DNA from: an uncultured Tateyamaria sp.
GTDB lineage: Bacteria; Pseudomonadota; Alphaproteobacteria; Rhodobacterales; Rhodobacteraceae
Length of the DNA stretch: 64,000 nt
NCBI RefSeq assembly: GCF_947488715.1
Contig: NZ_CANLAG010000010.1
Coordinates: 62,001-126,000 of the forward strand
Direction of reading: 5' to 3'
The position numbers and the translations under genes are program-made. Positions 736-18,925 of the stretch are shown piece by piece. The notes beneath the pieces were generated by a model. That model had not been told where the DNA came from and made no database searches. It was given only the letters and a program-made list of their open reading frames with translations. How positions within the stretch are numbered: the first letter of the stretch is position 1; each line of letters opens with the position of its first letter.

Positions 736-2722
736 CGCCCTGGTGGCGGCTCTGGTCGATGCGCCACTGACCCGTTCGATCACCGTCGAGCAGATCAATG
801 CCAATCGGGGCGGTGCCCCTCTGCGCCGCCAAGCGGCGGTGCGCAACATCGATGAAGAGGCGCGCACGGTCCAGGTGGCGTTCAGCTCCGAAGAGCCGGT
901 GCCGCGCTGGTTTGGCGACGAGGTCCTCGACCACTCGCCCGGCGCCATGCTCGAGACGCGGTTGCAAAACGGCGCGGCAGTCCTGTGGAACCACGACACA
1001 GACGTGCAGATCGGTGTCGTCGAAGCCGCCTCGATCGGTGGTGATCGGCGCGGGCGCGCGACGCTGCGGTTTGGCCGCTCCGCGCGAGCCGAGGAAATCT
1101 GGAATGACATCGTCGATGGTGTGATCCGTCACATCTCGGTCGGGTACTTCGTGCGCGCCATCAAGACAGAGGAGCGCGAGGGCGAGCGCGACAAGGTCAC
1201 GATCACCGAGTGGGAGCCTTACGAAATCTCGCTCGTGAGCGTTCCTGCGGACGCCACTGTCGGTGTTGGTCGCGGGGCTGGGGAACCGCCAGAGGAAGCG
1301 CCGCCCGTACCCGCCAATACTGGCGACGAAACAACAGCTACCGAAACAGAAGGAACGCGCAACATGGAACGCATTCTCCGGCACAATGGCGCTCTGGTGC
1401 GCGCCCGCGTGGACGAAAACGGCAATGTCCTCGAGGTGCTCGAGGTCATTGAAAGCGCCGAGGCGACACGCGCGCTGGTACAGGAGGGCACCCAAGCCGA
1501 GCAACAGCGCACGGCTGACCTGCTCGAGCTGGGCGAGCAATACTCGGCGCAGCAACTGGCTGCCGAGGCGATCCGCAGCAACACGTCCGTCGACGAGTTC
1601 ACGCGTTCCCTTCTCGACCATGTGTCCAACAATGATCGCGCCGACCGGGGCGGCAATCAGCCGCTCGACGACAACCCCGGCCAAATCGGCTTGACGGACG
1701 CTGAAGTTGGCCAGTTCAGCTTTTTGCGCTGTGCAAATGCGATGCTGAACCCGACCGACCGTTCTGCCCAGGAGGCCGCAGCATTTGAATTCGAAGCGTC
1801 GCGCGCCGCTGAGCAATCCATGGGGCGCACTGCTCAGGGCATGATGGTGCCAGTTGATGTGCTGACCCGTGCTTTGAACACATCCACAGACGGCCTCGCT
1901 CCCGGCAACACTGGCGGGTTCTTCGTCGATACTACCTTGATGACGCAGAGCTTCATCGAGCTGCTTCGCAACCGTTCTGTTTTCCTTCAGATGGCAACAC
2001 CGATGGGCGGCCTGATCGGCAACCTGGATATCCCCGGGCAAGCGAGCGGCGGCAACACGTTCTGGGTCGGCGAAGACGAGGATGTGGACGAAGGTGGTTA
2101 CGAGGGGCGTCTGGTTTCGATGTCGCCCAAAACCATTGGTGTCTTTGGCGAAGTCACGCGTCGCATGGCGATGCAAACCTCGCTCGATGTTGAAGCGCGG
2201 TTCCGTGCCAGCCTTGCACGGGATCTCGGCCTTGGCATCGATTACGCCGGGTTCTACGGGACAGGTGGTGCAAACATGCCGCTTGGGATCAATAACCAGG
2301 CGGGTATCAACGCAGTCGAATTCGGGGCGTTGCAACCCACATATCTCGAGCTCGTCGGCATGGAAACAGAGGTCTCTGCCGACAACGCGGACGTGGATTC
2401 CATGGCTTATGTCGGCAACAGCCGTTTCCGCGGCCACTGCAAATCGACACAAAAGTTTGCAGGCACCAACGGCATGCCGATTTGGGAAGCGGGCAACACC
2501 GTCAATGGCACCAACGCCGAGATCACCAACCAGATCGCTCTGGGCGATGTCTTCTACGGCAACTTTGCCGATGCAAACGTCGGCATGTGGGGTGCGCTCG
2601 ATATCCTGATCGACCCCTATACGAAAGGCCGCTCGGGGACCCGCCGTGTGATCTTGCACCAGGACGTCGATATTTCGGTCAACAACGTCGAGAGCTTCTG
2701 CGTCGGTCGCGACGCCGCATAA
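716..2722 (+). CDS. Fused prohead protease / HK97-type major capsid protein
   Basis: 668 residues combining two normally separate head proteins. Residues ~35-180 look like an HK97-family prohead protease (U35), with candidate catalytic His93 (WNHDTDVQIG) and Ser141 (RHISVGYFV). Residues ~185-300 are a proline/acidic linker and a helical, scaffold-like delta region. Residues ~330-668 are the HK97-fold capsid protein (for example FFVDTTLMTQSFIELLRNRS and TGGANMPLGINNQAG). The protease would cut the delta region away during maturation, so one gene supplies protease, scaffold and coat. The ATG at 716 overlaps the portal gene. The protease-to-scaffold linker (codons 189-194) carries one copy of the phage 15-nt repeat. 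The fusion type is known in other phages. Confidence 0.9.
   Translation: MTMIKNSALVAALVDAPLTRSITVEQINANRGGAPLRRQAAVRNIDEEARTVQVAFSSEEPVPRWFGDEVLDHSPGAMLETRLQNGAAVLWNHDTDVQIGVVEAASIGGDRRGRATLRFGRSARAEEIWNDIVDGVIRHISVGYFVRAIKTEEREGERDKVTITEWEPYEISLVSVPADATVGVGRGAGEPPEEAPPVPANTGDETTATETEGTRNMERILRHNGALVRARVDENGNVLEVLEVIESAEATRALVQEGTQAEQQRTADLLELGEQYSAQQLAAEAIRSNTSVDEFTRSLLDHVSNNDRADRGGNQPLDDNPGQIGLTDAEVGQFSFLRCANAMLNPTDRSAQEAAAFEFEASRAAEQSMGRTAQGMMVPVDVLTRALNTSTDGLAPGNTGGFFVDTTLMTQSFIELLRNRSVFLQMATPMGGLIGNLDIPGQASGGNTFWVGEDEDVDEGGYEGRLVSMSPKTIGVFGEVTRRMAMQTSLDVEARFRASLARDLGLGIDYAGFYGTGGANMPLGINNQAGINAVEFGALQPTYLELVGMETEVSADNADVDSMAYVGNSRFRGHCKSTQKFAGTNGMPIWEAGNTVNGTNAEITNQIALGDVFYGNFADANVGMWGALDILIDPYTKGRSGTRRVILHQDVDISVNNVESFCVGRDAA
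1280..1298 (+). repeat. Phage 15-nt repeat, copy 1 (inside the capsid fusion gene)
   Basis: GGGGAACCGCCAGAGGAAG. The first 15 bases from 1281 (GGGAACCGCCAGAGG) are identical to copies at 7911, 12378 and 18377; the whole 19-mer is shared with 12377-12395. This copy is translated as G-E-P-P-E-E in the linker between the protease and the scaffold/capsid portions. It is the only copy inside an evident gene. Function unknown. Confidence 0.85.
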
Positions 2723-2734
2723 AACATCGCATCG

Positions 2735-2754
2735 GAGGCGGCTCGGGTCGCCTC
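2735..2754 (+). terminator. Short hairpin after the capsid gene
   Basis: GAGGCG (2735-2740), an 8-nt loop and CGCCTC (2749-2754), followed by TTCAAA, lie between the capsid stop and the next start. The stem is only 6 bp and there is no real U-run, so it could trim or attenuate the capsid message instead of ending it. Confidence 0.3.
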
Positions 2755-2783
2755 TTCAAAGCCACTTTCTGGGAGCGCATCAC

Positions 2784-3071
2784 ATGGCGAAACAGATCAC
2801 CCTCAAAATCACTTCGGCTGTCTCGATCGGTGGTAAAATCATCGGGCCCAACAAGACGGTCACCCTCGACGAGCCACTGGCGAAGAACCTTTTGCACCGT
2901 GGCCGTGCCGTGGTTTTCACCATCGACGAGGACGAAAAGCCGATCGGCAAAATGACCGCTGCCGAATTGAAGGCCGTTGCACAGGGCCTGAATATTGAAG
3001 GCGCGGACGCTTTGAACAAGGCCGATCTTCTCGAGGCCATCCAAAAGGCCGAAGAGGCCAAGCAAGAGTAA
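2784..3071 (+). CDS. Small phage head-region protein with HeH/LEM-like C-terminus
   Basis: 95 residues, ATG at 2784. The N-terminal half (AKQITLKITSAVSIGGKII) looks like a small beta-rich domain. Residues ~65-95 (MTAAELKAVAQGLNIEG and LNKADLLEAIQKAEEA) resemble the helix-extended-helix (HeH/LEM/SAP-like) motif often found at the end of small phage head proteins. It sits between the capsid and the head-tail joining protein, the place where head decoration or FI-type accessory proteins are commonly encoded. No specific function can be assigned. Confidence 0.6.
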   Translation: MAKQITLKITSAVSIGGKIIGPNKTVTLDEPLAKNLLHRGRAVVFTIDEDEKPIGKMTAAELKAVAQGLNIEGADALNKADLLEAIQKAEEAKQE

Positions 3072-3075
3072 CGCC

Positions 3076-3411
3076 ATGCCCAAGCCCGGGTGGGAGGACC
3101 TCTCCGCCTTCTTCAGTCCAGACGAGTTTGCGACCACTGCGGTCATCACTCGTGGGGCAGAGGAGGTGGCAGAGGTCCTCGGCATTTTCGACGATCCGAA
3201 TGAGGTCGCGTCCCTCGGTGACTACAACATGGACCACCCGACGCCTCGATTCACATGCCCAGCTGCTGCGGTCGTGGACGTGCGGTACAAGGACACCGCT
3301 ACCATTGATGGCACCGCCTACGACGTGATGCAGGAGCCCGAGCTTGACGGCACCGGGCTCGCGACCCTGATCCTCGCCGAACCGAATGTGACCTACGATG
3401 CTGGCGTTTGA
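3076..3411 (+). CDS. Head-tail joining protein, lambda gpFII-like
   Basis: 111 residues starting 4 bases after the previous stop. Length, acidic character and order (capsid, this gene, gpZ-like) fit the lambda gpFII / Phage_attach family, which binds the connector so that a tail can dock. Recognisable are the N-terminal GWEDLSAFFSPDEFATTA and a C-terminal segment (LDGTGLATLILAEP) like the terminal strand of the family. It overlaps the next gene by 14 bases. The assignment rests on family resemblance and position. Confidence 0.6.
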   Translation: MPKPGWEDLSAFFSPDEFATTAVITRGAEEVAEVLGIFDDPNEVASLGDYNMDHPTPRFTCPAAAVVDVRYKDTATIDGTAYDVMQEPELDGTGLATLILAEPNVTYDAGV

Positions 3412-3937
3412 CATTGACGATGATCAGCTCGGCAAGATCGCGGATGAATACGCGGCCACCCCGAGGCAGGTCGACTTGAGCCGAGGGCGCGCGCTCAAAC
3501 GAACCGCCGGCACTATTCGCCGCATCTCCTCCAAGGGCCTGCAATCCGAGCTGGGGTTGCGCAACGCCACCGCACTGCGCCGTCGGATCAAAGAGTACCG
3601 GGTCGGCAAAGGCCGCAACGCCCTGAAGCTCTGGTACGGCGCAAACGATCTGCCGGTGTCTGCCTTCAAGGGCCGTGCCAGCAAAGCCGCGGGCGGGGTG
3701 AAGGTGGGCGAAACCATGATCCACGGCGCGTTCTTCGCGAAGATCGGTGGCAAGCGTCGCGTGATGGTCCGCTACGGGGCGAAACGGTGGCAGATCGGGG
3801 AGGCAAGTCTGCCGGTGGCCGACCGGATGATGATCTACCTCGAGGACGAGGTGTTCGTCGACCTCGACTCGATTTACCTGAAACACTTCCTCGCCGAGAT
3901 CCGCGCGAGGACAATTCTGGGAGTGGGTGATGGGTGA
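3398..3937 (+). CDS. Minor tail protein Z-like (gpZ family)
   Basis: 179 residues, basic (SRGRALKRTAGTIRRISSKGL; many Arg/Lys) with the segment MIHGAFFAKIGGKRRVMVR typical of prophage minor tail protein Z. gpZ-type proteins act at the head-tail interface or tail completion step. The start overlaps the gpFII-like gene and the stop overlaps the next gene by 8 bases, so this is one tightly packed late operon. Confidence 0.72.
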   Translation: MLAFDIDDDQLGKIADEYAATPRQVDLSRGRALKRTAGTIRRISSKGLQSELGLRNATALRRRIKEYRVGKGRNALKLWYGANDLPVSAFKGRASKAAGGVKVGETMIHGAFFAKIGGKRRVMVRYGAKRWQIGEASLPVADRMMIYLEDEVFVDLDSIYLKHFLAEIRARTILGVGDG

Positions 3938-4463
3938 TCCGATCGACTTGGGCGCTGCGCTCGAAACTGTCGTCGCAGCCATTGCAGCCGAGTTCGGCAC
4001 GTTCAAGGCGGTTGAGGCGGAGGACGAGAAGCGCAAAGGACTGCCGGTCCCTGCCATTCTGGTGCAAATCTCCGAGCTCGAGCCGGATCCTGATATGGAC
4101 CCGCACACCGGACAGTTCCCTTGCCTGGTCCACTTGGAAGCTCGGATTGTGATGGGGCACCGGACGCCAAGAGTGCGCCGCGAGGTGGTCAAGGCCGCGG
4201 GCGCGCTTGCCGCGTTCTTGCACAACAGCCGCCTTGGCGTGGCATGGGGTGCGGCCAAGGTCATTGCCGTGGATCCTGACGACTTCGCCCCGCTGGCCGA
4301 AACCTTTGATATCTGGCGCGTCGAATGGGTTCACTCCGCCGACATTGGTGAAAGCTACTTTGTCGACGAGGGTGTCACGCCACATCAGGTCCTGGCGTCC
4401 TGGTCGCCCGACATCGGCCCCGAAAACGAGCCGGAGTATGAGGAGATCGCGGGCGATGTCTGA
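3930..4463 (+). CDS. Probable tail terminator / tail completion protein
   Basis: 177 residues from ATG 3930 (a GTG at 3927 would add one residue). It falls between a gpZ-like gene and baseplate gene V, where tail terminator or completion proteins are encoded. The beginning (DLGAALETVVAAIAAEFG) and the central LPAILVQ-like strands resemble short phage minor tail/terminator proteins, but no signature motif is clear. It overlaps the V start by 8 bases. Name inferred from position. Confidence 0.45.
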   Translation: MGDPIDLGAALETVVAAIAAEFGTFKAVEAEDEKRKGLPVPAILVQISELEPDPDMDPHTGQFPCLVHLEARIVMGHRTPRVRREVVKAAGALAAFLHNSRLGVAWGAAKVIAVDPDDFAPLAETFDIWRVEWVHSADIGESYFVDEGVTPHQVLASWSPDIGPENEPEYEEIAGDV

Positions 4464-4977
4464 TTTTACCAGCTCGGAATCGCTGCGCGCAATCGCGCAG
4501 ATGGTGATGATTGCGGATGTCGTAGCTGTGGACGCTGCTAGCGCTCGGGCGCGGGTCAACTTCGGTGCAGACGCGACCAGTGCTTGGTTGCCATGGTTGA
4601 CGGAGCGGGCGAGCTCGATCGCGGTCTGGGCGCCGCCGTCTGAAGGCGAGCAGGTCTTATGCCTCTCTCCCTCCGGTCAGACGAGAGATGCGGTCATACT
4701 CGGGGCGATATTCAGCGGCCCGAATCCTGCCCCCTCGGCGTCCGCGGGAGAGCACCTTGTCATAGTTGGTGACAGCTCGATCTCGATCACAGGCGGCGAG
4801 ATTGTTCTGTCGAGCAATGGCACGACGCTGACTATCGACGGCGCGGGTGTGACCGTCTCTGGTCCGGCCATGGACGTGAAAACGGGTTCGTTGAACCACA
4901 ACGGCACCGATGTGGGTGACACCCATACTCATAAGGACGTCACCGCCGGTCCCGATAGGACCGGTGATCCGACGTAA
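4456..4977 (+). CDS. V: Baseplate assembly protein V, tail spike
   Basis: 173 residues, ATG at 4456. P2 gpV-type spike: an N-terminal OB-fold (residues ~15-90, ARVNFGADATSAWLPWLTE then GEQVLCLSPSGQTRDAVILG), a beta-helix stem (repeats such as SISITGGEIVLSSNGTTLTI), and a C-terminal tip with histidines (GDTHTHKDVTAGPDRTGDPT) that in this family binds iron at the membrane-piercing point. The trimer sits at the centre of the baseplate. In P2 the next gene is W; here the two are separated by about 3 kb of inserted cassette. Confidence 0.9.
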   Translation: MSDFTSSESLRAIAQMVMIADVVAVDAASARARVNFGADATSAWLPWLTERASSIAVWAPPSEGEQVLCLSPSGQTRDAVILGAIFSGPNPAPSASAGEHLVIVGDSSISITGGEIVLSSNGTTLTIDGAGVTVSGPAMDVKTGSLNHNGTDVGDTHTHKDVTAGPDRTGDPT

Positions 4978-5103
4978 AGTCGCTCCCAGCCCAAAGGAGA
5001 CATTAGTCTGGGTCGGTTTGAGGGCCTCAGCGCGGGACGGAGCCGCCGTTTCGAAAGACAATAGGAGTGTCGGCAAAGGGCGCTCCCGTGCTAGAGATAA
5101 GCA
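4978..5103 (+). other. Left junction of the inserted cassette
   Basis: 126 bases between the V stop and the DUF2726 start. No terminator with a U-run, no copy of the phage 15-nt repeat and no obvious target duplication with the right side (7793-7957) is visible. A weak GGAG...CTCC inverted pair lies near 5065-5087. Base composition drops from typical phage G+C to more A/T within this stretch, so the insertion point is probably here. Confidence 0.4.
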
Positions 5104-6051
5104 ATGTTGCGCAAATTCAGAAACTACAGTGAAGATCGGGTTCAAAAGCAAATCCGCGCGGTGATAGGGCGTCACGGTGCTGAACTGCATGAAAAGGTGC
5201 GTGTCGCAGACATTGTAGATATCGACATGCTAGATCGACGCGAGCTAGGCACGTACTCGTTGCAGTCCCATTTCGATTTTGTCCTGATCGACGAGAGCCA
5301 ACAAGCGGTCGTCGCCATCGAATTTGATGGGCCAGGACATAGCAAGTCCAATGACGAGAAGAAGAATTCGATTTGCAATCAGGCGGATCTACCGCTGTTG
5401 CGCATCTATGGGTTTCAAGAAGTGCGCGAAATCAACGCAATGACGTTAACGCGCTACTTGGTAGAGCTGGTGTTTCATGCGCGCATTTTCCAACAGATGA
5501 AAGTCGACGGGCACCTCGCCCCGAGCGAACCATTCATACTAAGCGGTTTCATCAAGGACGACGCCAAGAGCATTTTCGACAGCGAGTTCGATTTCGTCGG
5601 AAACGCAAACGGCAAACTGACACGCGCTTTGAAACAAAACGGTTTGGCCGACGACGACCTGCCGCACTTGAGTATTCACAGACTAATCGTGCGGTCGCCG
5701 GACGACGACCTTCGCGCCTTCGTTTCGATCAACTCGTCAAAGGGGCCGATCATCGGTACGGCAAACGTGCGCATCAGCCTGCCGTCACCCGGCTTCCTGG
5801 CCGAGATTGGAAGTATACCGATGGAGATCGCGCAATTCGCCGACGGGATGGCTTGCGATGATCTCTATGAGAACATCCGCCTCGTCGGCACTGGTGCGGG
5901 TCACGTAGTGAGATCAGCAGACGAACTGATTCCAGAGATCACAAACCTTGGTCGCCAAGGCTACTCATTCGCGTTCGGCGGTGGCGGTAGTCGTTCCGAC
6001 GTTGATCTGATAGCGGCATTCACGGCGGGCTCTGTTGGCAAACTTTTTTGA
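5104..6051 (+). CDS. DUF2726 family protein, PD-(D/E)XK nuclease-like N-terminus
   Basis: 315 residues. Residues ~20-110 match the DUF2726 pattern: a predicted core strand HFDFVLID with Asp58, then VVAIEFDGPGH with Glu73-x-Asp75 and His79, then a lysine pair (86-87) and ADLPLLRIYG. This is the layout of the PD-(D/E)XK nuclease superfamily, although the usual E-x-K is E-x-D here, so catalysis is not certain. Residues ~120-315 are an unrecognised domain ending in a Gly-rich stretch (FAFGGGGSRSDVD). The gene is not part of the P2 tail plan; with the RT gene that follows on the same strand it interrupts the V-W order and is poorer in G+C than its neighbours. No good Shine-Dalgarno precedes the ATG. 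Inference: effector or partner of the RT in a phage-borne defence cassette. Confidence 0.68.
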   Translation: MLRKFRNYSEDRVQKQIRAVIGRHGAELHEKVRVADIVDIDMLDRRELGTYSLQSHFDFVLIDESQQAVVAIEFDGPGHSKSNDEKKNSICNQADLPLLRIYGFQEVREINAMTLTRYLVELVFHARIFQQMKVDGHLAPSEPFILSGFIKDDAKSIFDSEFDFVGNANGKLTRALKQNGLADDDLPHLSIHRLIVRSPDDDLRAFVSINSSKGPIIGTANVRISLPSPGFLAEIGSIPMEIAQFADGMACDDLYENIRLVGTGAGHVVRSADELIPEITNLGRQGYSFAFGGGGSRSDVDLIAAFTAGSVGKLF

Positions 6052-6241
6052 TCTCACAATCCAATGCAGTCATTGGTGCGTCCGTCAGCATCGGTGAGCC
6101 TGGGTTCGGTGTTAGCTTTGGCCGCACAGCGCGCCAAGGTCGGTGCGCAGCCCGAAGCGGACCTACGCATAAGGGATTGAAGATTTACGCGTTGCTACTT
6201 ACTGGTGTACTGCATGTTCAATTGTGATGAGTAGGTAACCC
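6052..6241 (+). other. 190-base RT leader, possible structured RNA
   Basis: Intergenic stretch between the DUF2726 and RT genes. It contains a 7-bp RNA stem with one G-U pair (GCGCGCC with GGTGCGC, about 6128-6147) nested within a broken outer pairing (TGCGTCCG near 6076 with CGGAC...CGCA near 6158-6170). The 3' third is A/T-rich (up to about 6235) and could hold the RT promoter. Several defence RTs use a non-coding RNA encoded next to the gene; that this is one is inference only. Confidence 0.3.
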
Positions 6242-7792
6242 ATGCCCGGGCTCAGTAGTAGCGTATCACGCGAAATCGATTGGCACACCGCAAGTAGCAA
6301 CGTGCTTGTGGATGCGCGCAGTGACTTTATTTTGGCACCGCATTTTGACCTTATATTTCGTGAAAAATCGGATGATTTGATTGCTCAGGTCGCCGCGGAT
6401 TTAGCGTCGGGTCATTACGAACCGCAGCTTCCAATCTCTATAAGCGTCCCCAAACCTGGTCTTCTTACTAGACCGGGTTCAATTTTGTTGCCGAAAGATC
6501 GATTGATCTATCAAGCATTGATACAAGATATGCTAACACCCGTTGAGCAACAGTTCGACAGATCCAGATCGTTCAGTCATGTCCCATCTGATCAAGCTGA
6601 TCGATTGTTCGAGCCATCTTATAGCGGATGGTCCGCATTTCAGCGACGTGTCGAAGAAATATGCAACGAAAAGCCAGTTATTTTACAGTGCGATGTCGCG
6701 AACTACTTTGAAACGCTGCCGCAACATAACCTTATTAATGCTTTGGAAGGTGCTTCGTGTCGGACCGAGTGCGTTCGGCTACTTGAAAAACTTTTGCTAG
6801 CTTTTCGCGAGAAGAGCTCACAAGGCATTGTTCAAGGTATTTTCCCGTCTGATGTGCTTGGCAACTTCTACTTGACCGACGCCGATGCGCATTGTGCACT
6901 TTTTGAACACCCCTCGGCCCGCTACGTTGATGACATATACATCGGGTTCGACAATGAATTGGGTGCACGCTCGTTTCTTGTTGATTTTATTGAGAGTCTT
7001 CGCAGTGTTGGTTTGACACTCAACGCGACAAAGACGCGAATATGCCGCTCAAGTGAGTTGCTATTTGAGCAACGAGAAGTCGACACCATGTTTCAAGCCG
7101 CGCGCGGCGAAGTTGAAACGACGCGAGATTTGATCGAAGAGGGAGCATATGGCTTTCAGGGTGACTGGATAAACTCAGACGACTATGAAGAAGCTATCAA
7201 CGAAGGTTTGGACACCGAACTGCTGGCAGTCAGAGCCTTGATCGCGTACGATTATCCCGACGAAGAGTTGGCCGAAAAAATTGACCGGTTTTCGCTGCCC
7301 TACCTAAGGGCATCAGGAGACGATTTTGGGGTCGAAAGAGCATTCCAAGGTTTAGAGCAGCGGCCTCATTTAATTCGGCACTATTTTTCATATCTAAACC
7401 ATTTTGCTCGAACAAATCCGGACGTCCAAGAGAGGATTGAAGCTCTCATTGTTCGGAACGGCTTTTATCTCGACTATCAAAGAATGTACTACATGGCAGG
7501 TGTATTAACGTGTCAAAATGTTGCTTCTGAAACAGTTGCACAAGTCATGACATGGTATCGCAACCGTTCTGTTGGAAGGCATACAAGAGCACTCGCCGCG
7601 ATTTTTACTTGCAAATTTGGCAGCGCTCGGGAGCGCCGCGAGGTACGGGCAACGTATTCGAATGAAGACCCTTATGTCCGTGCTGCTATACTGTATGGAG
7701 CGCAATTCTTTACTAACGCTGAGAAGCGTACAATGAAGACAGCCTGGAACGGACACTCAGAGTTAAACTCTTTGATAGCTGCTGCGATCTAA
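6242..7792 (+). CDS. Reverse transcriptase, Abi/DRT (unknown group) type
   Basis: 516 residues, ATG 6242. Fingers/palm motifs are clear: SILLPKDRLIYQALIQDML (residues 80-98), motif A CDVANYF with Asp151, motif B QGIFPSD (198-204), motif C RYVDDIYIGF with the YVDD catalytic pair (228-231), then LRSVGLTLNATKTRI as motif D. Residues ~275-516 form a long, mainly helical C-terminal domain with no recognised thumb, maturase or endonuclease motif. A large alpha-helical C-terminus on a compact palm is characteristic of abortive-infection and defence RTs (AbiA/AbiK/Abi-P2 and DRT families), which protect against other phages. Codon usage is clearly more A/T-rich than in the tail genes, a sign of recent acquisition. 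The subgroup cannot be fixed by eye; a retron, group II intron or DGR RT is less likely (see rejected list). Confidence 0.88.
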   Translation: MPGLSSSVSREIDWHTASSNVLVDARSDFILAPHFDLIFREKSDDLIAQVAADLASGHYEPQLPISISVPKPGLLTRPGSILLPKDRLIYQALIQDMLTPVEQQFDRSRSFSHVPSDQADRLFEPSYSGWSAFQRRVEEICNEKPVILQCDVANYFETLPQHNLINALEGASCRTECVRLLEKLLLAFREKSSQGIVQGIFPSDVLGNFYLTDADAHCALFEHPSARYVDDIYIGFDNELGARSFLVDFIESLRSVGLTLNATKTRICRSSELLFEQREVDTMFQAARGEVETTRDLIEEGAYGFQGDWINSDDYEEAINEGLDTELLAVRALIAYDYPDEELAEKIDRFSLPYLRASGDDFGVERAFQGLEQRPHLIRHYFSYLNHFARTNPDVQERIEALIVRNGFYLDYQRMYYMAGVLTCQNVASETVAQVMTWYRNRSVGRHTRALAAIFTCKFGSARERREVRATYSNEDPYVRAAILYGAQFFTNAEKRTMKTAWNGHSELNSLIAAAI

Positions 7793-7909
7793 GGCGTCGA
7801 TGCTGTGCAAAGCAGACTTTGCAAAGTCCGCTTACTTCGCTCACTGAGCTTCCACGTCTTTGCCGCCGCTGGGTGCCAGGCCTTCGTGAGAGCAACAAGC
7901 TCTCCTTGA
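7793..7909 (+). other. Right flank of the RT gene with palindrome and hairpin
   Basis: Contains the perfect 14-bp palindrome GACTTTGCAAAGTC (7815-7828), with TGCAAAG also present just upstream at 7806-7812, and a hairpin GAGAGC-AACAA-GCTCTC (7888-7904). Neither is followed by a run of T, so these are not standard terminators. They may be a recombination scar, an RNA element of the RT system or a regulator site. A short reading frame ending at TGA 7907-7909 just before the repeat shows no recognisable protein. Confidence 0.45.
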
Positions 7910-7957
7910 GGGGAACCGCCAGAGGATTGCCGCGCGCACCTTCCTAAAACTGGCTGC
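7910..7957 (+). repeat. Phage 15-nt repeat, copy 2, in the leader of gene W
   Basis: GGGAACCGCCAGAGG at 7911-7925, directly preceded by TGAG. Looser similarity to copy 4 (18377) continues through TTGCCG, CGCAC and AAAAC to the W start codon, about 48 bases in all with small gaps. It lies at the exact point where the tail operon resumes after the RT cassette and W has no clear Shine-Dalgarno, so a leader or promoter role is plausible. Confidence 0.8.
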
Positions 7958-8296
7958 ATGAATGGGCTCAGCGCAACCAATGGACGGAAACTCGGCGGCA
8001 TCGACCACCTCCGTCAGTCGATCCGCGACATCCTGACAACCCCGATCGGGTCGCGGGTGATGCGGCGCGAATATGGTTCTCGCCTCTTCGAGCTGATCGA
8101 CGCGCCGTATTCATCTGCCACGCGCCTGGCCATCATCTCGGCCACGGTCGAGGCTTTGATGATTTGGGAGCCTCGGATCGAGGTCGAGGAGGTCGCGCTT
8201 CGCAGCCATGAGCCGGGTCGGGTCACCATCGACTTGAGTGGGCGTTACTTGCCCGAGGGCCGCGATATCCTGATCGAAGGGATTGAGGTCACATGA
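7958..8296 (+). CDS. W: Baseplate assembly protein W (GPW/gp25 family)
   Basis: 112 residues. T4 gp25/P2 gpW-type wedge protein that links the spike hub to the sheath initiation ring. The N-terminal block HLRQSIRDILTTPIGSRVMR followed by REYGS is the family hallmark; the E-rich C-terminus (RVTIDLSGRY) completes the gp25 fold. The ATG at 7958 gives the usual family N-terminus although no strong ribosome site precedes it. It overlaps J by 4 bases (ATGA). Confidence 0.93.
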   Translation: MNGLSATNGRKLGGIDHLRQSIRDILTTPIGSRVMRREYGSRLFELIDAPYSSATRLAIISATVEALMIWEPRIEVEEVALRSHEPGRVTIDLSGRYLPEGRDILIEGIEVT

Positions 8297-9186
8297 GCGC
8301 GTTCTCTGCCATCAACCTCGATCGCCTCCCGGCGCCGATCATCATCGAGCAGCCGGACTTCGAGGCGCTGTTTCAGGCGCGTAAGGATCGGCTTGTCGAG
8401 CTGGCGCCTGATCTGGCTCCCGTGCTCGAGTACGAGAGCGAGCCGCTGGTGCAGCTCCTGCAAGAGGACGCCTATCGTGAGCTCCTCCTGCGGGCGGCGG
8501 TGCAGGATGCAGGATCCGGCAATCTGCTCGCCTTTGCTGCCGGGCCGGTCCTCGATCATCTCGCCGCCTTCTACGGTGTGGAGCGTCAGGTCGTGCAAGA
8601 GGCGGACCCGAGCGCGATCCCACCGGTCCCCGAAGTGCTCGAGGACGATGCTCGGCTGCGGAGCCGTGTGCAGCTTGCGCCGGAGGGGTTCACAACCGCG
8701 GGCTCTATCGGCTCTTACACCTTCTGGGCGCTAAGCGCGTCGACCGAGGTCAAGGACGTGATTGTCCTCGAGACTGCGACCCCGGGCGAGGTGCGGATTG
8801 TGGTGCTATCGACCACCGGGACCGGCGTGCCGGATCCCGCGCTCTTGGCTTTGGTTGACGACAACACCCAACCGCGGCGTCCGCTCACCGATCGCGTGTT
8901 CGTCGAAGCGGCCACGGTCGAAGAGTACTCGATCGATGCCGAGCTTTTGCTCGAGGACGGTCCCGACGCGGAGCTCGTCCGCCAGGCGTCGCTGTCGGCG
9001 GTACAGGCTTACGCCAATGATAGCCACGGTATGGGCCGCAGCGTCACCATCGCAGGGTTGTATGCCGCCCTTTATCGCGAGGGTGTTCTTGATGTGATCA
9101 TCACCTCGCCCGCGCAGACGGTGGCGGTCGACCAGGACGCCGCCGCCTTCTGCACCGACATCTCGATCACGATCGGGGGTGCATGA
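8293..9186 (+). CDS. J: Baseplate assembly protein J
   Basis: 297 residues, P2 gpJ family (T4 gp6-like wedge component). It shows the conserved AAVQDAGSGNLLAFAAGPVL with DHLAAFYGVER following, then PEGFTTAGSIGSYTFWAL and the late beta-rich region VRIVVLSTTGTGVPDPALL. Length is normal for the family. Start and stop overlap neighbours W and I by 4 bases each, consistent with coupled translation and fixed stoichiometry of wedge parts. Confidence 0.92.
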   Translation: MSAFSAINLDRLPAPIIIEQPDFEALFQARKDRLVELAPDLAPVLEYESEPLVQLLQEDAYRELLLRAAVQDAGSGNLLAFAAGPVLDHLAAFYGVERQVVQEADPSAIPPVPEVLEDDARLRSRVQLAPEGFTTAGSIGSYTFWALSASTEVKDVIVLETATPGEVRIVVLSTTGTGVPDPALLALVDDNTQPRRPLTDRVFVEAATVEEYSIDAELLLEDGPDAELVRQASLSAVQAYANDSHGMGRSVTIAGLYAALYREGVLDVIITSPAQTVAVDQDAAAFCTDISITIGGA

Positions 9187-11081
9187 TGGCTGACGTTCCG
9201 ACCATTCTGCCGTCCTCTTCGACGCCGCAGGTCCGTGCCGTCGAAACCGTCATGGCCGAGCCCAAGGCGGGCATGCAACAGCCGCTTGCGCACCTGTGGA
9301 ACGTGGACACGTGCCCGCTCGATCTTTTGCCCTGGATGGCCTGGGCGTTCTCGATTGACCTGTGGGAGCACGATTGGCCCGAGGCGACCAAGCGCCAGGT
9401 TGTGCGCAACGCCATCTCGATCCACCGCCGCAAGGGGACCAAAGGTGCGGTTGAGGACGCGCTGTCTGACCTCGGGTTTTGGGCCGAGGTCATCGAATGG
9501 TTTCAGGCGGGTGGCGACCCACACACCTTTTCGGTCGATGCCTACGCCGATGACCTGGTGGATTTTGGCTGGCCGGTCACGCCCGAACAGATCGACGCCC
9601 TGCGCCGCCACATCGACTACGTGAAGCCCGTTCGGTCGCACTACACGGTGCGGGTCGGTGAGCGTTTCAAGGCATGGATGCACGCCCGTGGAGGGCTTCG
9701 AGATCGGAGTGTTGACCAGATGACCCAAGAGGCCAAGCCGCGTGTCCATGTGACTGAGGCGCGGATGCACGTGCGCGCTGGAGCGCGTGAGCGCGCAGTG
9801 TCCCGCATGGTCCAAGAAGCCAAACGGCGCACCGTCTGGCACCCGCCCATGAACGCGGTCGGCAAGCTGCTGATGGGCCTTTGGCATGGGCAGTCCAATT
9901 CGGTCGGCGCAACCTCGGGCATTGGGATCGAAATTGATCCGTATGTTATCACGGTGAACCCACCGTATCCCGAGCATCTGTGGTCTTTCTCGGGCGGCGT
10001 GCGACCGCACCAGGGCGGCTCTGGCCCGACCTCGCGGGACACACTTATCGATCCCGCACGGCTGGGCGCATTCATCCCCGCCACCGAAGGCGGGCCCTCG
10101 GTCACCGCCCGCGAAAGCATCGCGATGGGCTGCGCCGAGGTGCTCATGGGACCGTCCGGGTATGACCAGACCGCGCCGATGGTCGTCTATTCCGGGGGGC
10201 ACGGGTCAACGGACTTTGCGCGCCTGGTGATCGACCGCAACGGCGTTGTGTCGGTGCCGTGGATGAACATGCAACTGGCCGTCGCCAAGGCCAAGGCCGA
10301 GGCCGATGCGTTGGGCCTGGAGCTGGAGATTGTCAGTTTCGTCTACAACGGCAACGAAAGCGACTATGAGGACCCCAAGGCGCTCTGGCTGGCGAATTGC
10401 GCCATCCTGCGCGCGGCGGTTGATGAGCTGGCGGCAAGTGTCGGCCAGACCACACGCATCCCATTGGTTCTGTGCCAGGTAGGCGCACCGCACCGCGAAA
10501 ACAACACCGTCTCGCCGGTCACCATCGGGTCGCAAGAGTTCGCCGCTGATCCCGCCAATTACACGGTCGCGGCCCCGCAATATTGGGCAGAGGTCGGTGA
10601 CTTCCCCAGCGTCCACTACATCAGCCCAAGCCACCGGCTGTTGGGCGAAAAGCTTGGCTACACCATCCTCGACATGATCCACGGCCACGATCCCCAGGTG
10701 CGCATCCTCGATGGTGCGCGCGACGGAGCGTCCGTCACGTTGACCTACTCGCACGACGTGACCATCGATGCGGTGCGCGTGGGGCAGGTGGACAACCTTG
10801 GCCTGTCGCTGGCCGATGACATCGGAGAGATCGATCCGATCAACCTGGTGGTCGATGGCAACCGCGTGGCCTTCGACCTGACCCGCTGGCCTGTGGGTGA
10901 TCTGGCGGTGTCGGTGGCGTGTGGCAATCACACACGCTTTCCCGCCGGTTCGGGCTTGGGATCGGCACATGGTCAACGGTCTAACTTGCGCGCCGTTGAG
11001 CTGCGCCATCAAAGCATTTCGCAACCCGATCTCGGTTTCCCGGATTGGGCACAACACCAGCAATTCACCATCGCGGCATAG
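9183..11081 (+). CDS. I: Tail protein I fused to an SGNH/acetylesterase-like domain
   Basis: 632 residues, about three times a normal P2 gpI. Residues 1-~160 are gpI (MQQPLAHLWNVDTCPLDLLP, WAFSIDLWEHDW, HRRKGTKGAVEDAL). Residues ~166-215 hold two copies of a basic repeat: MHARGGLRDRSVDQMTQEAK and MHVRAGARERAVSRMVQEAK. From ~228 a carbohydrate-esterase (SASA/SGNH) domain follows: GQSNS with Ser238, a G-N-E-S-D block in SFVYNGNESDYED, and VHYISPSHRLLGEKLG supplying the late His. The end (~500-632) is beta-rich. In the baseplate this enzyme would face the cell surface and could deacetylate envelope sugar. Start ATG 9183 overlaps J. Confidence 0.85.
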   Translation: MMADVPTILPSSSTPQVRAVETVMAEPKAGMQQPLAHLWNVDTCPLDLLPWMAWAFSIDLWEHDWPEATKRQVVRNAISIHRRKGTKGAVEDALSDLGFWAEVIEWFQAGGDPHTFSVDAYADDLVDFGWPVTPEQIDALRRHIDYVKPVRSHYTVRVGERFKAWMHARGGLRDRSVDQMTQEAKPRVHVTEARMHVRAGARERAVSRMVQEAKRRTVWHPPMNAVGKLLMGLWHGQSNSVGATSGIGIEIDPYVITVNPPYPEHLWSFSGGVRPHQGGSGPTSRDTLIDPARLGAFIPATEGGPSVTARESIAMGCAEVLMGPSGYDQTAPMVVYSGGHGSTDFARLVIDRNGVVSVPWMNMQLAVAKAKAEADALGLELEIVSFVYNGNESDYEDPKALWLANCAILRAAVDELAASVGQTTRIPLVLCQVGAPHRENNTVSPVTIGSQEFAADPANYTVAAPQYWAEVGDFPSVHYISPSHRLLGEKLGYTILDMIHGHDPQVRILDGARDGASVTLTYSHDVTIDAVRVGQVDNLGLSLADDIGEIDPINLVVDGNRVAFDLTRWPVGDLAVSVACGNHTRFPAGSGLGSAHGQRSNLRAVELRHQSISQPDLGFPDWAQHQQFTIAA

Positions 11082-14589: not shown

Positions 14590-16775
14590 GCACCAAGAAC
14601 CAACGCCTTAACGCCACCATCACGATCGGGTCTGTGCTCGAGGCATCGGTGAAGCGCAACGTCGGCTTTCTCAAAACCGGGCTGAGCGAGGTCGGAAAGT
14701 CGATCAAGGAGGTCGAGCGCCGCCAGAAAGAGCTCGACCGACAGCGTCACATTCTGCGCCGCCAAGGCCAATCGGTGGAGCACCTCGATCGCGAGTATGA
14801 GAAGCTCGAGCGTACTCTGCGTGATCTGCAGCGCGCTCAGGAGCGCTACAATCGCGCCGCCGCCGCGTCGCGGCGTGTGGGCGCGTCCTTCGGGTCCATG
14901 GTGTCTGACATTGGGCGCAATTCCCGCCGCCTTGCCATTGGCGCAACATTGGCCGGTGGTGCCATCTTCGGAGTTGCATCATCCACCGCTCAGCTCGGCG
15001 ACGACGTCGCCAAGACAGCGGACAAGCTGGGCATCGGCATCGAGGAGCTGCAAGAGCTTCGGTATGCCGCAGAGCGGTCTGGTGTTGCGACTTCACAGTT
15101 TGACACTGCCCTCGAGAAGATGACCAAGAATATCGGCCTCGCGCTCGAGGGCACTGGCGCGCAGAAGGACGCTCTCGACGCCTTAGGGCTGTCTGCCGAG
15201 GATCTCGCAACGATGCTGCCCGAGGAGGCGTTGGCGGTCAGTGCTGATCGTTTGCAGTCAGTCGAAACCCAAGCCGAAAAGGCCGCGATCGCCAACGATG
15301 TGTTTGGGCGGTCTGGTATTGGGATGTTGAACATGCTCCGCGATGGCTCGCGCGGGCTGCAGCAGCTCCGCGAAGATGCGCGGCGTACCGGTTACGTGCT
15401 CTCCGAAGAGGCCGCTCGGGATGCGGAGGTGTTTCAGGACACGCTTCTCGACACCCAGCTCACGTTGAAGGGGCTGAAGAACACGGTCGGCGCCGAGCTC
15501 ATGCCGGTTGTGACCAAGTCAATGAAGCGCATTGGTGACGCTCTGATCGGTAACCGCAAAGACGTCGCGGCTTGGGCGGAGGCTTTCGCGGATGGTGTCG
15601 AGCGCGCTTTGCCCATCATCGGGTCTGTCGTCGAGGGCATGGGCTCCATCGCGCGGAACGTGGGCTCCGTGACGTCGCAGGTCGCGGAATTGGTCGGGGG
15701 CTGGGAAAACTTCGGCAAGATCATCGGGACCGTCCTGGTCGCGAACACCGTCAGAAAGGTCGGAGCGTTCGCTCTGTCAGTTGGAAGACTTGGAACGGCC
15801 ATGTGGGCGCTCGCAGGAGCTGGCCCGTTCGTCGCTGGTGCAATCAAGGCTATCGGCGTGGCCATCGCGGCGAACCCCATTGGGGCTGTGCTCACTGCAA
15901 TCGCGGTCGGTGCGACCCTGATCATCGCCAATTGGGAAAAAGTAAAGCCTGTGGTCGAGCCTATCCTTCAGTGGTTCGGGGACAAGCTGGTCTGGCTTTG
16001 GAACAACGCGGGCAAGCCCCTGATCGACGGCCTCAAGAGAGGAGCCGACGGAATCGCGCGTGCTTGGTCCGCAACATCCGAAGCGCTCATGCCGATCTTG
16101 ACCTCGATCGGGGACGGGTTCACGCGCCTCTATGAGCTGGTCAAGCCCGTGATCGACGCTTTGAAGTGGATCGTCGACAAAGGCGGTGCTGCCGTTGGGA
16201 CAGTGGTTGATCGGTTCCGGGCGGGGGGCGCTGTCGCTCCATCGAGCAACTCAGCTCTTGGCCCGCGGGGCGGTAGCGCCATGGTGCGCCCGCAGGCAAA
16301 CGCGCTGGGCGGACCGTTCCACCCTGGTTGGCATCTCACCGGAGAGTTGGGGCCAGAGCTCAAGTTCGAGAACCGTTCCGGCTACGTCGCGAACAACCGC
16401 GCCCTGCGACAGCTCGCCGGATACGCCGATCGAGTCGGTTCGCTGATGCAGCGCTCTAATACGATTCCGCGAAGCGCGGGCGCCGTGATGGATCGTGCCT
16501 CCCGGCTCATGTCAGCCCGAAACAGCGCGCCTGCACGGCAGCAAAGGGCCGCTGCAGCAATGGCATCGCGTGTGGATGCACTGATCGCTCCTGCGTCAGC
16601 TCAGGCGCCCGCGGCGACCACCGCCGCTCCGGTGACACAGCACATCACCTACACGATCAATGCACCCGGCGCCTCTGCCGCAGAAGTCATCCGGCTGATC
16701 GAGCGCAAGAGCCGCCAAGCCGCAAACAACGGCCTCTTCGATCGCACGCCTACAACTGGACCTTACGGGAGGTAG
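14586..16775 (+). CDS. T: Tail tape measure protein
   Basis: 729 residues from ATG 14586; an in-frame upstream start at 14547 would lie inside E'. It sets tail length and may form a channel. Layout: coiled coil ~30-95 (KSIKEVERRQKELDRQRHIL), a tape-measure core (GDDVAKTADKLGIGIEELQE, then RYAAERSG) at ~150-300, hydrophobic segments ~400-480 (GPFVAGAIKAIGVAIAANPI, GAVLTAIAVGATLIIANWEK), and an Ala/Arg-rich low-complexity C-terminus with THYTINAPGAS-like ending. It is somewhat shorter than P2 gpT. Stop is followed by gene U after 2 bases. Confidence 0.92.
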   Translation: MSTKNQRLNATITIGSVLEASVKRNVGFLKTGLSEVGKSIKEVERRQKELDRQRHILRRQGQSVEHLDREYEKLERTLRDLQRAQERYNRAAAASRRVGASFGSMVSDIGRNSRRLAIGATLAGGAIFGVASSTAQLGDDVAKTADKLGIGIEELQELRYAAERSGVATSQFDTALEKMTKNIGLALEGTGAQKDALDALGLSAEDLATMLPEEALAVSADRLQSVETQAEKAAIANDVFGRSGIGMLNMLRDGSRGLQQLREDARRTGYVLSEEAARDAEVFQDTLLDTQLTLKGLKNTVGAELMPVVTKSMKRIGDALIGNRKDVAAWAEAFADGVERALPIIGSVVEGMGSIARNVGSVTSQVAELVGGWENFGKIIGTVLVANTVRKVGAFALSVGRLGTAMWALAGAGPFVAGAIKAIGVAIAANPIGAVLTAIAVGATLIIANWEKVKPVVEPILQWFGDKLVWLWNNAGKPLIDGLKRGADGIARAWSATSEALMPILTSIGDGFTRLYELVKPVIDALKWIVDKGGAAVGTVVDRFRAGGAVAPSSNSALGPRGGSAMVRPQANALGGPFHPGWHLTGELGPELKFENRSGYVANNRALRQLAGYADRVGSLMQRSNTIPRSAGAVMDRASRLMSARNSAPARQQRAAAAMASRVDALIAPASAQAPAATTAAPVTQHITYTINAPGASAAEVIRLIERKSRQAANNGLFDRTPTTGPYGR

Positions 16776-16777
16776 TC

Positions 16778-17191
16778 ATGGCCGAGGTGATGATGCAGCT
16801 TGGGTTTTTCCAGTTCTCGATCGACGATGCCGCCTACCAGCGCCTGAACCGCTCGACGGAATACCGCTGGGCACGGCAGGCCAGGATCGGCACCAACGAC
16901 GCCTTGCAGTTTACCGGCCTCGGCCCCGACACGATCGAGCTCGAGGGCGTGATCTACCCCCATTTCCGGGGTGGCCTGAAGCAGGTCGACAAGATGCGTA
17001 CTCAAGCGAGCCTTGGCCTTCCCCTGCCACTGGTCTCCGGGATCGGCAAGGTTCTGGGCCTATGGGTGGTCGAGGCGATCAGCGAAGGCCAAGAGATCAT
17101 GGCCGCGCAGGGCGTGCCCTACAAACAAGAGTTCACAATGAGGATGGCGAAGTATGACGGCGGGCTCCGATCTCTTCTACGTTTCTTCTGA
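16778..17191 (+). CDS. U: Tail protein U
   Basis: 137 residues, P2 gpU family (tail end/completion). Conserved blocks: MMQLGFFQFSIDDAAYQRL, the Tyr/Trp-rich EYRWARQARIGTNDALQFTG and VIYPHFRGGLKQVDKMR. GGGAGG lies a few bases upstream. It overlaps gene X by 38 bases. Confidence 0.92.
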   Translation: MAEVMMQLGFFQFSIDDAAYQRLNRSTEYRWARQARIGTNDALQFTGLGPDTIELEGVIYPHFRGGLKQVDKMRTQASLGLPLPLVSGIGKVLGLWVVEAISEGQEIMAAQGVPYKQEFTMRMAKYDGGLRSLLRFF

Positions 17192-17378
17192 AGGCGACAT
17201 GCTCGACCAAGTGATCGCCGCACACTACGGCGACACCAATGGCGGCAAGGTCGATGCCGTTCTGGCCGCAAATCCCGGCCTGGCGGGGCTGGGCGTCGTG
17301 CTCGAGCCGGGTGTGCGGATCCTGTTGCCCGACCTGAGCGAGGCACAGCCTGCGGAGACAGAGCAGCTATGGGGGTGA
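17154..17378 (+). CDS. X: Tail protein X (LysM-like)
   Basis: 74 residues, P2 gpX family, a small LysM-type protein. It reads DMLDQVIAAHYGDTNGGKVD followed by AVLAANPGLAGLGVVLEPG and ends with a strand (VRILLPDL), the usual pattern of a LysM fold that bridges D to the tube. ATG at 17154 lies within U and the end overlaps D by 10 bases. Confidence 0.92.
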   Translation: MTAGSDLFYVSSEGDMLDQVIAAHYGDTNGGKVDAVLAANPGLAGLGVVLEPGVRILLPDLSEAQPAETEQLWG

Positions 17379-18376
17379 CGGACTTCCGACCGCTTGTGCG
17401 CGTGCGGATTGACGGCCAACTCGTCTCAGGCTTCCTGTTCTCGCAGCTCACCTCTGTACGTGTGACCGACACCGCTGGGCTCATGTCCGACACAGCCGAG
17501 CTGACCTTCGCCAATGCCTCAGCCATCCAGCGGTTTGCGATGCCCGAGCCGGGCGCAGAGGTTGAGATCGAACTCGGGTATCTCGGCGAGTTCAAGCACA
17601 TGGGCGTGTACATCGCTGACGAGGTCGAAGAGAGCTCGCCGCCGCGCCAGATCAGCGTGTCATGCCGTGCAAAGTCGCAAGGCAGCACTGAGAGCGGGTA
17701 TGCCCCAATCCACCAGCAAAAAACGCGGTCGTGGGACGAGGGCCTTACGCTCGAACAGATCGTAAAAACAGTTGCAGGCGACAACGGATTGGAACCGGCG
17801 ATCACGGACGCTGCCGCCTCAATCGTTCCGGGGCATATCGATCAGATCGACGAGAGTGACTTGGCCATGCTCACGCGGATCGCCGTGACGCATGACCTGG
17901 TTGCCAAGCCCGCGGGCGGTACACTGTTCGTCGGCAAAAAGGCCGACGGGATCAAGGCGTCTGGTGAAGCCACACCGACAGTTCGGGTCCTTGAGACGGA
18001 TGTTTCGCGCTGGGCGATGCGTCGTAGCCAAGGCGAAGCTACGGGCTCCGTGATTGCGACCTACCGGGATCTGGGGCAGGGGGCCGACATCGAGGTCCAG
18101 GTCGGCGAGGGCGAGCCCATCCGGCGGCTGCGCCAACGCTTTCGATCAGAGGCCGAGGCCGCGGCCGCGGCCAGTGCGGAGGCCCGTCGATCAGGACGGA
18201 TGCAGGAGGCCTTCGAGCTCGAGATGCCGGGCGATCCGAGCATTGTGGCCGAGGGTAAGATCGAGCCGATCGGGTTCAGCTCGGCTTGTTCTGGCACCTG
18301 GTTGGTCGAGACGGCCAACCACGAGGTTTCCGTGGGCGCCTATGTGACGTTGGTTCAAGCGACCCGGCCCGAGTGA
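17369..18376 (+). CDS. D: Late control / hub protein D
   Basis: 335 residues, P2 gpD family (T4 gp27-like hub holding the spike under the tube). Seen: FRPLVRVRIDGQLVSGFLFS, ELGYLGEFKHMGVYIADEVE, then HIDQIDESDLAMLTRIAVTH and DLVAKPAGGTLFVGKKADG, which are family landmarks. It is the last P2-type structural gene, and its TGA (18374-18376) abuts the fourth copy of the phage repeat. Confidence 0.92.
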   Translation: MGVTDFRPLVRVRIDGQLVSGFLFSQLTSVRVTDTAGLMSDTAELTFANASAIQRFAMPEPGAEVEIELGYLGEFKHMGVYIADEVEESSPPRQISVSCRAKSQGSTESGYAPIHQQKTRSWDEGLTLEQIVKTVAGDNGLEPAITDAAASIVPGHIDQIDESDLAMLTRIAVTHDLVAKPAGGTLFVGKKADGIKASGEATPTVRVLETDVSRWAMRRSQGEATGSVIATYRDLGQGADIEVQVGEGEPIRRLRQRFRSEAEAAAAASAEARRSGRMQEAFELEMPGDPSIVAEGKIEPIGFSSACSGTWLVETANHEVSVGAYVTLVQATRPE

Positions 18377-18424
18377 GGGAACCGCCAGAGGGTTTTGCCG
18401 ACGCACTCCCTCAAAACGGGTACA
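18377..18424 (+). repeat. Phage 15-nt repeat, copy 4, after gene D
   Basis: GGGAACCGCCAGAGG at 18377-18391 begins on the first base after the D stop codon. Downstream, GTTTTG (18392-18397) can pair with CAAAAC (18412-18417). Similarity with the W leader copy extends over ~48 bases (TTGCCG, CGCAC, AAAAC). The next gene starts at 18444. Confidence 0.85.
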
Positions 18425-18443
18425 TCCAAGCTGAAGAGTAGCC

Positions 18444-18755
18444 ATGACAAAACCAATCTTCGATACCCGCGTAAGCCTCGGAAACCTCATTCACATCGGC
18501 ATTCTTGTCGGCACAGTCGTGGTTGGCGCCACCGTGGCGTTAGGAACGATAGAGCGCCTCGAGGTCCAAATCGGGGACATGGAAGAGGATGTTTCCGGTT
18601 TCGATGACCGTTTACGCGCCGTTGAAACCACCACTGCCATGCAGGGGCAGGACTTCAAAGCCATGAGCGGTGCGCTGGGCAAGCTCGAGGCCCAGCTCGT
18701 CGAGAACAACCGTTTGCTGCGTCAGCTTTTGTCGCAACAGGGGTCCGCACACTAA
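18444..18755 (+). CDS. Small membrane protein with coiled coil, possible lysis/spanin-type
   Basis: 103 residues. One transmembrane helix near the N-terminus (residues ~14-34, IHIGILVGTVVVGATVALG) followed by a heptad-rich helix (LEVQIGDMEEDVSGFDDRL, then LEAQLVENNRLLRQLLSQQG). Such single-span coiled-coil proteins after gene D are often holin- or spanin-like, but no endolysin is seen beside it. It could instead be a membrane-anchored superinfection protein. Last recognisable prophage gene in the window. Confidence 0.55.
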   Translation: MTKPIFDTRVSLGNLIHIGILVGTVVVGATVALGTIERLEVQIGDMEEDVSGFDDRLRAVETTTAMQGQDFKAMSGALGKLEAQLVENNRLLRQLLSQQGSAH

Positions 18756-18925
18756 GCGATCGATGCAGAAAACTTGCCCGATGGCTCTTTTCCGAACGGG
18801 ACTCCATACCGTCGCGAGAACAAAAAGGAGCCGTGATCAACGGCGGCTGTGCGGACCTTGCTGCCGTTCGGGCTTCTATTTTGGATGACTGCTGTGTCTT
18901 GACTGCTGCCATTGGCCTGACCACT

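Follow-up and report, generated by a model that had tools for sequence, protein, structure and literature searches.

A UG20-class reverse transcriptase and a DUF2726 gene as probable independent cargo between tail genes V and W of a P2-like prophage

The 64,000-nucleotide stretch analysed here (hereafter the window) comes from an uncultured Tateyamaria sp. of the Rhodobacteraceae (contig NZ_CANLAG010000010.1, forward strand, positions 62,001 to 126,000) and carries a P2-like prophage whose baseplate genes V and W are split by an insert of about 2.9 kb (the V stop ends at 4977 and W starts at 7958). The insert encodes a DUF2726 protein and a reverse transcriptase (RT) of the UG20 class. It is reasonably probable that this block is swappable V-W cargo made up of a single-gene UG20 defence RT and an independent DUF2726 protein, that the RT acts in the manner of AbiK, and that W has its own promoter-like element. 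The V-W junction itself is a variable cargo hotspot.

The V-W junction as a variable cargo site

V, W, J and I were identified by Pfam models (Phage_base_V, GPW_gp25, Baseplate_J and Tail_P2_I, respectively). Both inserted open reading frames (ORFs) lie on the forward strand, the DUF2726 gene at 5104-6051 (315 amino acids, aa) and the RT gene at 6242-7792 (516 aa). The insert has a G+C content of 0.507 (0.475 in the RT gene and 0.534 in the DUF2726 gene), against 0.618 in the upstream flank and 0.623 in the downstream flank. These data bear out an initial annotation of the locus, made by a model from the sequence without database searches, which had described V and W as split by two same-strand genes of lower G+C. 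The features of the region are as follows.

4456..4977, + strand: gene V (baseplate/spike); Pfam Phage_base_V, E 4.5e-12; ORF called from 4207, likely ATG at 4456 by eye
4978..7909, no strand: cargo block, G+C 0.507, from the V stop to the conserved W leader; delimited by homology to four insert-free phages from 7910 and by G+C
5104..6051, + strand: DUF2726 nuclease-like protein, 315 aa; Pfam E 1.3e-11 at residues 8-102; relatives of 67-84% identity in other contexts
6052..6241, + strand: 190-nt gap ahead of the RT gene; no Rfam match; leaders of UG20 relatives not alignable
6242..7792, + strand: UG20-class RT by profile, 516 aa, open frame; PADLOC RT_UG20, E 9.9e-191 over residues 1-516; Pfam RVT_1, E 7.7e-14
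6923..6934, + strand: catalytic YVDD, RT residues 228-231; unchanged in all 16 UG20 RTs of the alignment
7148..7168, + strand: YGFQGDW, RT residues 303-309, in the linker between the RT and helical domains, with Y303 as candidate priming residue; YGF(Q/E)xxW in 25 of 25 UG20 loci; predicted local distance difference test score (pLDDT) below 50 at residues 301-313
7178..7789, + strand: predicted all-helical C-terminal domain, residues 313-516; AlphaFold2 model, Foldseek matches to AbiK, DRT6 and DRT4
7910..7957, + strand: conserved W leader with core CCGCCAGAGG at 7916-7925 and -10-like AAAACT at 7946-7951; putative transcription start at the W ATG
7958..8296, + strand: gene W (baseplate wedge); Pfam GPW_gp25, E 7.5e-18
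8293..9186, + strand: gene J (baseplate); Pfam Baseplate_J, E 8.9e-27
9183..11081, + strand: tail gene I; Pfam Tail_P2_I, E 1.1e-39

The flanks of the insert are homologous to those of insert-free phages: the nucleotide alignment of four such relatives (L034, L035, L047 and L128) breaks in or before V and restarts at window position 7910 in all four, and in L034 and L035 the W start lies within about 65 nt of the V stop.

The junction was surveyed by W searches of viral contigs (best 80 per scan) and of 384 genomes of the family, later extended. The input of 172 loci (157 viral, 14 genomic and the window) was reduced to 132 distinct junctions by dropping 30 repeats by W sequence, seven loci without a V match and three without a usable W (L094, L109 and L185). 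The gap between V and W is below 100 bp in 80 junctions, 100-600 bp in 39 and above 900 bp in 13, the window included. The earlier statement that V and W are normally contiguous in P2-type tails therefore holds, with 119 of the 132 gaps shorter than 600 bp. Three of the 12 other junctions above 900 bp look structural by eye (L049, L050 and L208), and nine do not (L060, L065, L067, L142, L143, L173, L177, L180 and L184). Among the latter, L142 carries a glycosyltransferase 92 gene and an insertion sequence (by eye), L184 a DUF4145 gene and a PD-T7-4 match (E 1.5e-8), and L180 only weak alpha/beta hydrolase matches under the cut-off. Cargo is also present in L094 and L109, which lie outside the survey and in which W is cut. 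The labels 'PAAR', 'structural', transposase, capsid and integrase were assigned by eye, with no family match behind them.

The exchange of cargo is seen directly in L060 and L144, the latter dropped from the survey as a repeat of the former and compared separately. The two share the same phage backbone, with 94.0% identity over 1,628 bp before the cargo and 97.4% over 660 bp after it, and differ in the cargo itself, about 1.35 kb in L060 and about 3.8 kb in L144. The L144 cargo contains, at 2409-5254 between V and W, matches to the PADLOC candidate defence pair PDC-M71A (a kinase) and PDC-M71B (a TPR protein). Thus, as computed from these junctions, the V-W site is a variable cargo hotspot. 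To call it a defence hotspot would go beyond the data: the 14 cargo proteins compared with PADLOC include, besides the window, one clear candidate defence pair (L144) and the PD-T7-4 match (L184), ten lack any match at E 0.01, and of the remaining four one is marginal (L180, E 0.006).

The site resembles the defence hotspots of E. coli P2 and P4 phages as presented in the main text of PMC9122126, in that 1-5 kb of variable cargo lies between conserved phage genes in both. The hotspots presented there are adjacent to cos, whereas the window site lies between V and W and has a promoter-like right edge; the terms 'Baseplate' and 'V and W' have 0 occurrences in that main text.

Class, fold and predicted chemistry of the reverse transcriptase

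By class profile, the RT is a new member of the catalogued UG20 class of UG/Abi RTs: the PADLOC RT_UG20 model matches its full length (residues 1-516) with 633 bits, far over the next classes (UG21, 210 bits; Drt8, 163 bits), and the window RT has the domain plan and the YGF(Q/E)xxW motif of the class. The initial annotation had held that this is not a described DRT type, which is correct in that no functional study of UG20 RTs was found in the open-access literature and incorrect in that the class is already catalogued in PADLOC. Apparently new are the location on a prophage, the tyrosine in the linker and the V-W site. The remaining claims made for the enzyme stand, since QGIFPSD occupies residues 198-204, YVDD occupies residues 228-231, the long C-terminus is modelled as helical, and a prophage site with the behaviour of a cargo hotspot does harbour an RT of Abi/DRT type. 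Assignment to the group II intron RTs was rejected (the NCBIfam maturase model scores 83 bits where 300 are required, and Rfam finds nothing in 4500-8600).

The AlphaFold2 model of the RT (mean pLDDT 77.7) is all-helical from residue 313. The best 50 of 1222 Foldseek matches to the PDB, to which all figures in this paragraph refer, include matches spanning most of the RT, with AbiK first (E 1.9e-10), then DRT6 (1.2e-9) and DRT4 (3.3e-9), followed by UG15 (7.1e-9), AbiA (3.0e-8) and Abi-P2 (5.1e-8). TMq scores are 0.45-0.54 for AbiK, DRT4, DRT6 and UG15 (0.54 for DRT6 at E 1.2e-9) and 0.35-0.36 for DRT9. An AbiK-like action is weakened by three features of these matches: the superpositions are loose, with root-mean-square deviations of 9.5-11.8 Å for AbiK, DRT4, DRT6 and UG15 and 15-16 Å for AbiA; RTs of group II intron type appear at a similar E value (1.6e-9) with TMq 0.34-0.42; and the TMq scores of AbiA (0.42-0.43) and Abi-P2 (0.36-0.44) overlap that range. 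Given the high deviations, the resemblance is one of overall plan and falls short of a close superposition. The window RT has, like the reportedly template-free polymerases AbiK, DRT4 (UG15), DRT6, AbiA and Abi-P2, an RT domain followed by an all-helical domain; it differs from them in its low identity (9-16%) and in belonging to a separate PADLOC class, and its chemistry is predicted.

An RT domain followed by a helical repeat domain, as found in the predicted model and its Foldseek matches, is the plan of the Class 1 (AbiK-like) enzymes. A passage of PMC13174585 gives a helical HEAT-like repeat domain as typical of Class 1 UG/Abi RTs, a passage of PMC13275509 describes the Class 1 enzymes as template-free, protein-primed homo-oligomers, and DRT4 is summarised as template-independent in a passage of PMC13213688. 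In AbiA, according to the relevant passage of PMC11077055, Tyr298 and Tyr303 lie in a disordered linker between the RT and helical domains, a double mutant loses polymerase activity, and the two residues are suggested primers.

The corresponding UG20 linker (residues 301-313) has pLDDT below 50 and is variable and acidic except for the motif YGF(Q/E)xxW. This motif is present in all 25 UG20 loci, 16 of them in the RT model alignment and nine more outside it (L004, L005, L006, L008, L026, L028-L030 and L032, left out for broken or partial frames or as loci from another search route), and Y303 is invariant. The window RT thus shares a linker tyrosine with AbiA, and Y303 is predicted to be the priming residue of the UG20 RT. 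By analogy with AbiK, DRT4 and DRT6, the RT would most likely oligomerise, prime on its own protein, putatively at Y303 of the flexible linker, and make DNA without an RNA template.

A different mode of action, which is unlikely, is that the UG20 RT needs a cis-encoded non-coding RNA as template, as do the Class 2 DRTs (DRT2, DRT9 and DRT10). Some close relatives share short leaders ahead of the RT gene, which speaks for a short cis RNA and so counts against template-free synthesis: those of L021, L023 and L026 are 81-90% identical over 89-136 nt, those of L006 and L018 are 84% identical over 44 nt, and L012 and L013 share a leader as well. Against such an RNA, the L012 and L013 leaders are 69% identical, with RTs of 92% identity behind them. 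Between the window and L011, the relative nearest to it (RTs 69% identical), a 600-nt blastn comparison at E 0.01 gives no match on either side of the gene, and the leader of L024 does not match those of L021 and L023 at RT identities of 75-77%. No leader conserved across the whole UG20 clade was found, the leaders being mostly not alignable. The absence of Rfam matches at the RT also argues against such a template, as does a fold nearest to Class 1 with DRT9 scoring lower. Priming on the protein itself is the mode of action preferred here.

Genomic company of the two genes

The DUF2726 protein belongs to its family by a Pfam match at residues 8-102 (44.8 bits; cut-off 24.7). In a passage of PMC3710099, DUF2726 is described as a DNase of the restriction endonuclease (REase) fold that is also fused to AbiJ-NTD3. 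The window protein has the Pfam match in common with the proteins of that passage and differs in being encoded by a separate gene and in having a C-terminus of about 210 residues without a Pfam match. The description 'PD-(D/E)XK-like DUF2726' given at the outset is confirmed as to the family; the PD-(D/E)XK likeness comes from the family alone, the match to the restriction-endonuclease family MTES_1575 being far under its cut-off (E 0.023). The AlphaFold model of the protein is poor (pLDDT 39.7) and its best PDB relative by sequence is unconvincing (E 0.32). The protein would be a stand-alone, REase-fold-like one with a putative nuclease activity.

Relatives of the DUF2726 protein were found in the 388 genomes of the family with identities of 84%, 74% and 77% in three, a 72-residue stretch of 58% identity in a fourth, and two marginal matches besides the protein itself; one more, of 67% identity, is on a viral contig. 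Their surroundings include tRNA genes (L120 and L121), a transposase (L122, by eye) and a methyltransferase (L123, a fragment). A Methylocella plasmid encodes a distant relative (32% identity) in the vicinity of HEPN/Toprim and TIR genes.

The initial annotation had proposed a two-gene defence module and had tied it to co-occurrence of the two genes in relatives. The two genes are adjacent on the same strand, 190 nt apart, and both are of lower G+C within one insert, as would suit a system in which a DNA product is made or sensed by the RT, with the DUF2726 nuclease as effector or regulator. However, in the stretches examined, several of them short, no DUF2726 relative was detected by tblastn in any of the 24 other UG20 loci, and the RT is absent from the loci of all five DUF2726 relatives (contigs end near the gene in L014, L016, L026 and L029 among the UG20 loci and in L121 and L122 among the DUF2726 loci). 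The known relatives lie instead near tRNAs, a transposase or a methyltransferase. This computed lack of pairing refutes the module by the test that the initial annotation had set and leaves the reading of the RT untouched. A true two-gene system is accordingly quite improbable, and the RT and the DUF2726 gene are probably independent cargo at one site.

A similarity of 52 residues between the C-terminus of the DUF2726 protein and the N-terminus of the RT (score 71; none of 200 shuffles as high) was set aside, a profile comparison giving it a probability of 1.6%. Compared with the window RT, two relatives of the DUF2726 protein likewise beat their shuffles (scores of 76 and 67, with 60 shuffles each), but L033, at 37, does not. 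The scores of five other UG20 RTs are at, about or below their shuffle maxima.

UG20 RTs are rare. With the genome of the window counted each time, they were found in 2 of 385 genomes of the taxonomic class, 3 of 394 of the family and 1 of 20 of the genus. Twenty loci came from a pattern-limited scan of 84,980 species genomes, and the 24 loci besides the window comprise species-genome loci, three plasmid loci and one from a further genome, with L027/L008 and L014/L031 each counted once, their contigs agreeing in length. Pattern-limited scans of IMG/VR gave no UG20 RT, and of six matching entries among 50,697 phage records none had a match covering 80% of the RT. The window RT is thus the only UG20 RT recognised in a phage and no more than that, the prophage status of the other 24 loci not having been systematically checked.

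This rarity, together with broken UG20 frames in L004, L028 and L030, would fit functionless passenger DNA on its way to being lost. Such a fate has a low probability here: neither window ORF is interrupted, and the catalytic and linker motifs of the RT are preserved. Equally doubtful is a service to the phage itself, in recombination, tail variation or replication. The RT does stand inside a tail operon; against such a service, the sources of the other 24 loci are genome and plasmid collections, with BREX or SIR2 genes beside some of the loci, IMG/VR yielded none in the scans above, and insert-free relatives retain the flanking tail genes.

Some other UG20 RTs have defence genes as neighbours. 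In L017 (locus 1345-10998) the RT gene stands between pglZ and brxD of a BREX system, with brxC ahead of pglZ, and L016 has the same pglZ-RT order with flanks 87-93% identical to those of L017. A UG20 RT lies near SIR2 and DarG genes in L004, follows an HNH gene matching a type IV restriction model in L025, and is about 5 kb from a DpdB match in L008. PADLOC families match 7 of 15 UG20 neighbour proteins (4 of 9 and 3 of 6), from 5 of 13 loci, and these 15 proteins were hand-chosen, not random, which lowers their weight for a defence role. The same is true of the scarcity of shared neighbours: among the 24 loci, the only recurrences are those within the near-identical pairs L016/L017 and L021/L026 and a single weak match between L012 and L023. 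From its class and some of these contexts, a defence role of UG20 RTs is likely. On infection by another phage, the action of the RT may block either the incoming phage or the cell itself (abortive infection), from which both the prophage and its host would gain.

The metagenome-assembled genome of L016 is labelled as a planctomycete and L017 as a betaproteobacterium; flanks of 87-93% identity suggest either recent transfer or a binning error.

The W leader and implications for the tail operon

On its right the cargo ends at the W leader, which carries GGGGAACCGCCAGAGG. Copies of this element with small variations lie at window positions 1286, 7916, 12383 and 18382 and, on stretch L126, at 8628, 17880 and 18518 (+) and 11649 (-). 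Exact copies of AACCGCCAGAGG number nine in the whole genome, eight of them in the prophage region of about 30 kb, and the reversed pattern has none; the 16-mer with at most two mismatches has four matches in the window against 0.07 expected. A -10-like NANNNT follows the core by 20 nt in seven of the eight prophage copies, and the element is also found in many viral contigs. The core was further compared in 193 distinct segments, divided by upstream bases into groups of 162 and 31: A at offset 31 and T at offset 35 occur jointly in 94 of 162 and 20 of 31, and the same pair at 48 shifted positions in at most 22 and 6, counts that are not independent, many segments coming from related phages. 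This enrichment is consistent with a -10 box lying 20 nt past the core. In 38 of the 132 junctions the core lies within 80 nt of W, always 41-43 nt before the ATG (38 of 38), and 94 junctions have no exact core. The predicted transcription start in the W leader coincides with the W ATG.

The repeated element thus looks like a phage-wide promoter, perhaps giving a leaderless W mRNA. Two findings tell against this. No promoter of sigma70 consensus was found in 4900-8060 (shuffles, mean 2.3) and the W element was not flagged. This leaves expression in the lysogen unproven, and the W element, too, does not conform to the promoter consensus. In addition, the copy at window position 1286 lies inside a coding frame (a 668-aa ORF), ahead of a possible internal start. 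Promoter function is therefore to be taken as hypothetical. That ORF, at 716-2722, appears by eye to be a fusion of protease and major capsid protein.

The outer limits of the prophage region were also considered. A tRNA-Leu (gag) gene at L126 6357-6443 marks its left edge and may be an attachment site, and a tyrosine integrase-like ORF (by eye) lies on the minus strand at window 25132-26397, about 6 kb past the last recognised prophage gene. No attachment repeats of at least 15 nt were found between L126 3001-12000 and window 16001-27500.

The position of the W element directly downstream of the cargo may explain why the split of the tail operon is tolerated. In the proposed mechanism, a block of two independent genes would occupy the variable V/W site of the P2-like prophage as swappable cargo, and W and the later genes would be expressed from the promoter-like element despite the split. 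If the element is truly a promoter, W and the later genes restart on their own behind any cargo.

A bolder proposal, offered tentatively, is that the V-W junction of the P2-like prophages of this family and their relatives is an undescribed defence hotspot, held open by the promoter at its right edge, and that UG20 is a DRT type priming on the linker tyrosine (YGFQxxW) before the helical domain. The locus provides a concrete candidate for the priming residue of a UG class that still awaits a functional account in the literature found, and it places the UG20 class on a prophage. The V-W cargo site of P2-like prophages is thereby marked as a place to seek more defence genes, and the recurring promoter-like element offers a mechanism by which their tail operon may be split at V-W.

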